Shown: one piece after another, positions 60,600-63,014 of the stretch | How the letters are laid out: every line of letters starts with the position of its first letter | Numbering within the stretch: the stretch's first letter is position 1 | Origin: Candidatus Tectimicrobiota bacterium | GTDB taxonomy: Bacteria; Tectomicrobia; Entotheonellia; Entotheonellales; Entotheonellaceae | Direction of reading: 5' to 3' | Assembly (NCBI GenBank): GCA_026005175.1 | Contig: BPKO01000002.1 | Location: 342,501 to 406,500, forward strand | DNA: 64,000 bases | Program-made: the position numbers and the translations under genes | Notes under the pieces: model-generated | Told to the model about the DNA's origin: nothing | Database searches by the model: none | Seen by the model: the letters and a program-made list of their open reading frames with translations, nothing else

Positions 60600-61301
60600 T
60601 CATCCCTCGCTGTCCTGCGGGGTCGCTGGCAGCCACCGGGCTTGCCAGCCCTCTTCGGGCTGTGCCAGGGCAAACGCCCACGGCTGGCCCCAGCGCTCCC
60701 AGAATGCCACGTGCTTGACCGGCTTGCGGCGCACCGGGCCGTGCCGGTCCCGCGGATAGCCCAGCGGCACCAGACAGTAAATCTCGTACGAGGCCGGGAT
60801 GGCAAGTAACGCCGCCAGCTCCTCCGGCCGCACCAAGGGCAGGTTAAAGATCGAGGCCCCGAGGCCCAGGCCGCGCGCCGCCAGGAGCAGGTTCTGGACG
60901 GCAGGGAAGATGCTGCCTCCAGGGGTGTGGTGGCGCCCCCGCTCTCCGCATACCACGATAATCACCGGCACTTCGGCCAGGTGCTGCACCAGCCAGGCCA
61001 CCGCCTTGAGCGCCAGCCGCGGCGTCCGCGGCAGCTGCTCCAGCAGCGCGGGCTCGGCCGCATAGCGCGGCTGATAGCGGGCCCAGCCTTCTGCCGCCCA
61101 TGCCTGGAGCTGCCGCTTCACCGCCGCGTCGGTAACCAGGACAAAACGCCAGTCCTGGGCGTTGCGGCCAGAGGGGGCCCGAATGGCGGCGTCGAGCAGC
61201 TGGAAGAGCACCGCTTCGGGCACGGGGTCCGGCTTGAGACGGCGTAAGGCGCGGGTGGTGTAAAGGGCGGTAAAAAGGCCGATTTGTGGCGAGGGTTCCA
61301 C
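60600..61301 (-). CDS. Nitroreductase-family flavoprotein
   Basis: 233 residues. FMN-binding N-terminus RALRRLKPDPVPEAVLF and AAIRAPSGRNAQDWRFVLV; the middle has GGSIFPAVQNLLLAARGLGLGASI; ends in a family-like YEIYCLVPLGYPR. It would reduce nitro groups, quinones or flavins with NAD(P)H, or act on a natural-product intermediate. The start is GTG 61301 with GGAGAGGAAG upstream. Confidence 0.85.
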   Translation of the reverse strand: MEPSPQIGLFTALYTTRALRRLKPDPVPEAVLFQLLDAAIRAPSGRNAQDWRFVLVTDAAVKRQLQAWAAEGWARYQPRYAAEPALLEQLPRTPRLALKAVAWLVQHLAEVPVIIVVCGERGRHHTPGGSIFPAVQNLLLAARGLGLGASIFNLPLVRPEELAALLAIPASYEIYCLVPLGYPRDRHGPVRRKPVKHVAFWERWGQPWAFALAQPEEGWQARWLPATPQDSEG

Positions 61302-61341: not shown

Positions 61342-61704
61342 TCATAGGACGACGAAAAGGATGGTGAGGGCAGCCGCTAGCGCGGCACTGAATCCGACCA
61401 GATCGACGGCTTGCCGCCGCAGTTGCCGCGCGGCCGCTGCAGCGGGCCACCGCTCCACCTCTCCATCGAACCGGCGCGCGCCACGCGCCGCCAAGAGGAC
61501 TCAGGTGCCAGTGCGGGCCTGGAGCAGGCCCAGCAGGCCGCTCCACAAAGGGAAAAAGAGCAGCCCGCGCCACGCTGGTGCCGCCGCGGTGATCAGAAAA
61601 ACAACCCCCAGGACGGCGCTTACCGCCAGGCTCAGCACGCCCAGGAGACGACGCCGGCGCCGCTCCCCAGGCCCGATGTTGCCCATCTTGCCGGGCTGGT
61701 CCAT
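61342..61704 (-). CDS. Small membrane protein with in-frame UGA: candidate selenoprotein
   Basis: Read through the UGA at 61501-61503, the frame gives 120 residues ending at TGA 61342-61344. Upstream are two membrane helices (LLGVLSLAVSAVLGVVFLI and GLLFFPLWSGLLGLLQ), then QARTGT, the UGA and VLLAARGARR. Next comes a basic stretch, then a third membrane helix (LVGFSAALAAALTILFVVL). Related proteins, as I recall them, read QAREKTC-VALAARG, with Cys at the UGA. No other stop lies in the downstream frame. A SECIS-like hairpin follows the UGA. Function is unknown. If selenocysteine is not used, the gene is a truncated 67-residue protein or carries a base error. ATG 61704; TTG 61710 is an alternative. 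Confidence 0.6.
61473..61492 (-). promoter_or_regulatory. SECIS-like hairpin after the in-frame UGA
   Basis: Counting the U of UGA as 1, GGCG (12-15) pairs with CGCC (28-31), G16 is bulged, CGCG (17-20) pairs with CGCG (24-27), and the apical loop is UGG (21-23). In E. coli fdhF the SECIS bulge is U17 and the loop G is 22-23, so the geometry is close, although the bulged base is G and not U. Confidence 0.4.
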
Positions 61705-61811
61705 CTCCAAGGGTCCTCTGGCCAGTCTGATTCCCGGCCTGCCCTACAGCGCCTCAGAGGCAAGCGCAAGCCGGCTTCTTGCTTTGCCACCATAGCCTTG
61801 CCGACGGCCTT

Positions 61812-62663: not shown

Positions 62664-63014
62664 TCAGTGCTTGCTAAAGAGCGACATTTCGACCCGTTCG
62701 CGGCCGATGTACCAGAACAGAAGAATAGCCACCACCATCTTCAGCACGTTGGGCACGATCAGCGCCGCGTCTTCGTAGACGAGGGGCTGCAGCCATGCCT
62801 GGGCAAAGTAAACGACGATGCCTGACAGCAGGGTCACACAGACGCCAGCCAGCGCCCAGCGCTGCCGCACGAGCAGGCCCAGGCAGAAGAGAATGGCCGC
62901 CACCGAGACGATGCCTTCGGCAAGATTGGCATGGCGCAGCTGCAGCACGGCCAGCACGCCCAATACAATGGCAAAGAGAATCACGCCCAGGTAACTGCCC
63001 CTGCGTTCGCTCAT
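62664..63014 (-). CDS. Hypothetical four-helix membrane protein
   Basis: 116 residues, not recognised. Four hydrophobic segments: about 8-24 (YLGVILFAIVLGVLAVL), 31-50, 55-75 and 85-103. ATG 63014 follows GGGAGG. It ends VEMSLFSKH. It lies between the sirtuin gene and a divergent small ORF; no domain name can be given. Confidence 0.6.
   Translation of the reverse strand: MSERRGSYLGVILFAIVLGVLAVLQLRHANLAEGIVSVAAILFCLGLLVRQRWALAGVCVTLLSGIVVYFAQAWLQPLVYEDAALIVPNVLKMVVAILLFWYIGRERVEMSLFSKH

Follow-up and report, generated by a model that had tools for sequence, protein, structure and literature searches.

The locus examined here raises the question of whether an in-frame UGA codon within a small membrane-protein gene terminates translation or is read as selenocysteine (Sec). 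It lies in a window of 64,000 nucleotides (the whole stretch of DNA that was analysed), taken from a 3.99 Mb assembly of 14 contigs representing a 77% complete metagenome-assembled genome. On the minus strand, a frame of 120 codons that begins with the ATG at 61704 and runs to 61345 is interrupted only by this TGA, beyond which 52 codons remain open up to a second TGA (Table 1). The frame, the UGA and the 52 open codons had been described in an initial annotation, and all were found to be present as claimed. The 120-residue read-through protein is laid out as MDQPGKMGNIGPGERRRRR, helix 1, helix 2, QARTGT-U-VLLAARGARRFD and helix 3. The UGA is inferred from sequence comparison to specify Sec in a genuine selenoprotein, with a probability of about 95%, selenium in the protein not having been shown experimentally. 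The comparative evidence behind this reading is strong and consists of the read-through frame, a UGA/Cys column in homologues, selection on a hairpin and Sec machinery in the genome.

Table 1. Features of the locus and its surroundings, in window coordinates.
Feature	Position	Strand	Details
Possible Shine-Dalgarno sequence, AGAGGA	61714..61719	(-)	9 nt before ATG 61704; sequence inspected, inferred
Predicted selenoprotein gene	61342..61704	(-)	120 aa, Sec = residue 68; terminal TGA 61342-61344
NIGP motif end and transmembrane helix 1 (residues 12-38)	61591..61671	(-)	AlphaFold2, hydropathy
Helix 2 (residues 50-65), stops 3 residues before Sec	61510..61557	(-)	AlphaFold2
In-frame UGA, predicted selenocysteine (U68)	61501..61503	(-)	TGA/TGC/TGT column in homologues
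SECIS-like hairpin	61472..61490	(-)	nt 11-29 after UGA, 8-bp stem, loop GGC (61480-61482)
Transmembrane helix 3 (residues 89-119), dependent on UGA read-through	61348..61440	(-)	AlphaFold2, hydropathy
Nitroreductase gene, 40 nt downstream	60600..61301	(-)	PF00881, E 3e-26

A direct search yielded a single distant homologue, 35% identical (E = 1e-11) and likewise carrying TGA at this position; profile searches then identified ten genomes of that homologue's phylum, as well as others outside it. The distant homologues are 22-47% identical, belong to about 14 phylum-level groups and carry TGA or Cys at the Sec column; no TAA, TAG or other residue was found there among the homologue copies read. 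The tBLASTn-type comparison suggested in the initial annotation was thereby answered; homologues ending before the UGA would have refuted the proposal, and none of the full-length ones does so. The alignment has no gaps between the NIGP motif and the UGA site, and a fixed-spacing DNA signature was therefore usable, comprising N-I-G, R, Q, T-[TGA/TGC/TGT]-[V/I/M] and D at set spacings and matching all known members. The window contains one match and 100 shuffled versions contain none, and the match is not a chance one. When 84,980 species were scanned, 110 loci were recovered (89 TGA, 18 TGC and 3 TGT), all 110 of which read as true homologues also at positions left free by the pattern; their groups include Gemmatimonadota, Acidobacteriota, Rokubacteria, Methylomirabilota, Chloroflexota, Myxococcota, Planctomycetota and Zixibacteria. 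The 89:21 ratio of TGA to Cys is conditional, since the signature admits only TGA, TGC or TGT. An unbiased HMM search of 395 genomes from one phylum gave 34 full-length matches, 30 with a single TGA, four free of stops and none with TAA or TAG. The Sec site was inspected in 27 of the 30 loci retrieved from this search (L170, L176 and L177 were left out), and was TGA in 24 and Cys in three stop-free matches (L154, L163 and L166); three of the four stop-free matches were thus read, the gene of genome G774 not being among them. Cys at the Sec site was found in 21 of the 110 signature loci and in L023, L163 and L166. A Cys-form gene (L066) is carried by the cultured Melghirimyces thermohalophilus DSM 45514. 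A single-protein scan of genome contigs and an alignment scan of viral contigs gave no match, and there was no plasmid match to the family.

The motif quoted in the initial annotation, QAR..TC-V.LAARG, agrees with the family consensus QAREKT-[U/C]-VxLAARG, and the invariant or near-invariant residues are N9, I10, G11, R18, G22, Q62, T67, U/C68, A72, G75, R77 and D80. The accompanying statement that the UGA replaces Cys holds only in part: Cys is indeed present in aligned homologues, but a change from Cys to UGA cannot be assumed, because TGA is common and Cys in the minority. At least 12 Sec/Cys changes were needed on a quick tree, in which many forks were unresolved. A more distant, stop-free homologue (L037; NIGRAEIRMR...FHFCAGFGMKGVFNFG) was seen in genome G468, in which no selA was found, and suggests a wider Cys-form branch. 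Another member, at 1501-1737 of L030 (genome G169), looks decayed, with three TGA codons in all, one at the Sec site and the others where relatives have Trp (RWWR) and Arg (LAARG), followed by a TAA and the loss of helix 3.

The third-position excess was 2.11 before the UGA and 2.16 after it (48 related gene pairs, non-independent), and this equality on both sides indicates that the downstream part is under protein selection. Such values bear on the possibility that the codon is an ordinary stop, arising from a nonsense mutation, pseudogene formation or a sequencing error, with the 52 downstream codons as mere relics. The origin of the window in a single, 77% complete assembly and the decayed L030, with its three TGA codons and missing C-terminus, could be cited for it, but the codon recurs at this column in dozens of unrelated genomes without TAA or TAG, the codon-position bias is protein-like on both sides, and the hairpin described below is under selection. 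This explanation has virtually no probability left and is already refuted in practice.

The hairpin placed at 61473-61492 in the initial annotation is real, its coordinates being off by no more than two bases. In the window it reads CGGCGCGU-GGC-GCGCGCCG, with a folding energy of -13.9 to -15.3 kcal/mol and a loop at nt 19-21 after the UGA. The SECIS element of Escherichia coli fdhF has G23/U24, counted from the U of UGA, and a bulged U17. Similarly, the commonest family loop, GGU (nt 19-21), places G and U at 23/24 in slightly more than half of the members, whereas the window has the loop GGC and a stem without a bulge in its 8-bp core. The constraints given for bacterial SECIS elements (PMC13188914), namely a loop of 3-9 nt, G in the first two loop bases, a distance of 16-37 nt from the UGA and an MFE of -7.5 or lower, are satisfied by the window hairpin (GGC, 18 nt from the UGA, and the energy given above). 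The model RF00031 (SECIS_1) was the wrong family, matched nowhere and was not counted as evidence.

Since the alignment is also gapless around the hairpin, its bases are comparable column by column. In the family, bases 13-18 pair with 24-29 after the UGA around a loop at 19-23, whose first bases are GG in almost every gene, usually as GGU or GGG, and third codon positions fall at bases 15, 18, 21, 24 and 27. Base 15 is G in 90/96 Sec genes (94%) versus 9/22 Cys genes (41%; Fisher, 1.2e-7), and base 21, the end of the loop Gly codon, is T or G in 82/96 (85%) versus 6/22 (27%; p = 2e-7), compared with 34% for the other Gly codons of these Sec genes. The pair 15-27 covaries (permutation p = 0.0002, relatedness ignored). 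An energy search with loops up to 37 nt after the UGA chose another, later hairpin in the window, and the energy test was hence limited to loops 16-22 nt after the UGA, a limit set after the sequences had been inspected. The hairpins of Sec genes averaged -11.6 kcal/mol, versus -6.4 kcal/mol for synonymous recodings (z about -18), and those of Cys genes differed only weakly from their recodings (z = -2.5); in the restricted test, 95% of the 96 Sec genes reached -7.5 kcal/mol or lower, against 41% of synonymous recodings. The exact z value is inflated because related genes were counted as independent, and the key point of these statistics is the Sec/Cys contrast. Judged from base composition and predicted energies, the hairpin is clearly selected for in Sec genes and hardly in Cys genes.

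The genes whose presence the initial annotation had left to be checked, selA, selB, selC and selD, are all in the genome, outside the window. The selA gene (C3:364895, 638 bits) is adjoined by selB (C3:366298), the tRNA-Sec gene at C3:375030 has the anticodon TCA, giving tRNA-Sec(UCA), and selD (C9:120631-121554, L199) has an in-frame TGA at ACAG-U-ASK. The UGA-containing selD is a second selenoprotein gene of this genome and an internal positive control. Across the family, selA scored above the cut-off in 36 of the 41 Sec-form genomes, with fragments in a further two, versus 13 of 22 Cys-form genomes (p = 0.013). Full-length selA was not found in the Sec-form genomes G186, G190 and G553, all three of which contain a UGA-containing selD, and assembly gaps or a divergent selA may be the reason. 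In the proposed mechanism, SelB and tRNA-Sec, guided by the hairpin just 3' of the codon, would insert Sec at the UGA. Recoding of the UGA as Trp, Arg or Gly, or leaky read-through without Sec, has nothing to support it beyond the general existence of such codes; it is contradicted by homologues whose alternative is always Cys where read, by strong selection on a SECIS-like hairpin in UGA genes only, by the Sec machinery and UGA-containing selD, and by neighbouring genes that read normally with translation table 11, and is considered highly improbable. The locus is taken to be a genuine selenoprotein gene because of the UGA/Cys column, the coding bias, the fold, the hairpin selection and the Sec machinery, and the new selenoprotein suspected in the initial annotation is supported by its homologues, by that machinery and by the selected hairpin.

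AlphaFold2 (70 sequences, with Cys modelled at the Sec site) returned a single confident three-helix fold for the full read-through protein (pLDDT 95.6, pTM 0.86), with residue 10 forming part of a strand or bridge and residues 76-78 a strand (strand pairing not derived). The third hydrophobic helix noticed earlier beyond the UGA corresponds to helix 3. The loop following helix 2 has 8 Lys/Arg, the N-terminal part has 6 and the segment between helices 1 and 2 has one, a distribution that suggests, as a prediction, that Sec lies on the cytosolic side. A PDB sequence search gave no match, and a PDB fold search gave none at E <= 0.001, the best Z of 7.1 (Mrp subunit) being in the range expected of helical bundles and so neither a fold match nor proof of a new fold. 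According to PMC4513850, UGA-Sec decoding is frequently incomplete, at 30-40% in vivo, and a truncated product therefore probably exists too. On this incomplete decoding rests the idea that the 67-residue, UGA-terminated form is the functional product and read-through a minor regulatory event, but helix 3 and the post-Sec loop show conservation and the full-length protein is the sole product of Cys-form homologues, and the idea keeps no more than a slender chance.

The gene product would be a three-helix inner-membrane selenoprotein, in which U68 lies close to two conserved segments, NIGP and G-x-R-x-x-D, where helix 2 ends on what is probably the cytosolic side. There, U68 would most likely be the lone Sec of a redox centre on the surface of the membrane, with a peroxide, a disulfide or another electrophile as its target. 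Selenium incorporation, topology, redox chemistry and substrate are all inferred, and the redox role, which has no direct support, is only somewhat favoured. No conserved CxxU/UxxC pair and no second conserved Cys or His exist in the family, which has a single conserved Sec/Cys position. In 32 of 89 Sec genes a Cys stands three residues ahead of NIG, and a resolving Cys is therefore optional at most. Regeneration of the Sec would fall to an external thiol, or to this upstream Cys in some members.

The nitroreductase gene is possibly co-transcribed with the selenoprotein gene, and is not a conserved partner, the neighbourhood not being kept among homologues. A Sir2 gene lies upstream, beside which a minus-strand ORF (62664-63014) encodes a hydrophobic protein of 116 aa without a Pfam match. 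No conserved gene neighbour was found outside close relatives. At 10 loci of Pyrinomonadaceae and other Acidobacteriota (e.g., L095), the family gene lies just 3' of an efflux-type membrane fusion ORF, about 51 nt away on the same strand, the identity of the ORF being judged by eye only. Small polytopic proteins are frequently metal binders or transporter accessories. The selenoprotein could accordingly have a structural role in the membrane, or bind or transport a metal or metalloid, rather than catalyse a redox reaction, and the efflux-type gene order would fit; however, the lone conserved Sec/Cys position, without His or a second Cys, and the clade-specific nature of the efflux neighbours make such a role less likely, though still a real possibility.

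The protein has no family match in Pfam or NCBIfam, although the latter holds models for many of the families in PMC13188914, and a scan of NCBIfam with 70 members gave no selenoprotein model among the best 25 of 27 weakly matching families. The 119-entry prokaryotic catalogue of 2026 (PMC13188914, Table 1; families and subfamilies) contains no family with a matching domain or T-U-[V/I]..A motif, and nothing fitting was found in other open-access literature on selenoproteins, preprints excluded. The in-frame UGA, downstream bSECIS, Sec/Cys exchange and decoding by SelA, SelB and tRNA-Sec are shared with the catalogued families, but the membrane families among them, MerT (PF02411), YeeE/YedE (PF04143) and SO_0444 Cu/Zn efflux, have other domains and motifs. 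PF11127 (DUF2892, YgaP-like TM) is also a membrane protein, likewise begins with N-x-G-x-x-[DE]-R-x-x-R and conserves a Cys beyond helix 2, but is about 66 aa long, has a GFCPLYxLLG context and lacks a third helix. The window protein gave no match to it, its gathering cut-off was not reached, weak matches came from 8 of 70 members (best E = 0.0014), and hhalign gave a probability of 23-33% for the N-terminal part only; a distant link to YgaP-like TM domains, good by eye and unconfirmed by hhalign, is left open. For GOS_A (PMC2398784), 2 Sec and 155 Cys forms were reported, the opposite of the present ratio (no sequence comparison was made).

These genes form a widespread bacterial membrane selenoprotein family that is absent from Pfam, NCBIfam and the catalogue of PMC13188914. 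It is a tentative suggestion, held with low confidence, that they represent an unrecognised and widespread class of selenoenzyme whose membrane fold is not that of thioredoxin and whose single Sec, on the cytosolic face, would reduce membrane-borne substrates such as lipid hydroperoxides, independently of a conserved partner gene. The family adds a selenoprotein of mostly uncultured bacteria in about 14 phylum-level groups, whose genes standard annotation likely truncates at the UGA. Among the recovered members, Sec forms are more numerous than Cys forms, and the protein is a small polytopic one of the membrane, not an enzyme with a thioredoxin fold. The approximately 120 natural orthologues with Sec or Cys, some under SECIS selection and others not, are also well suited to testing bacterial SECIS prediction.
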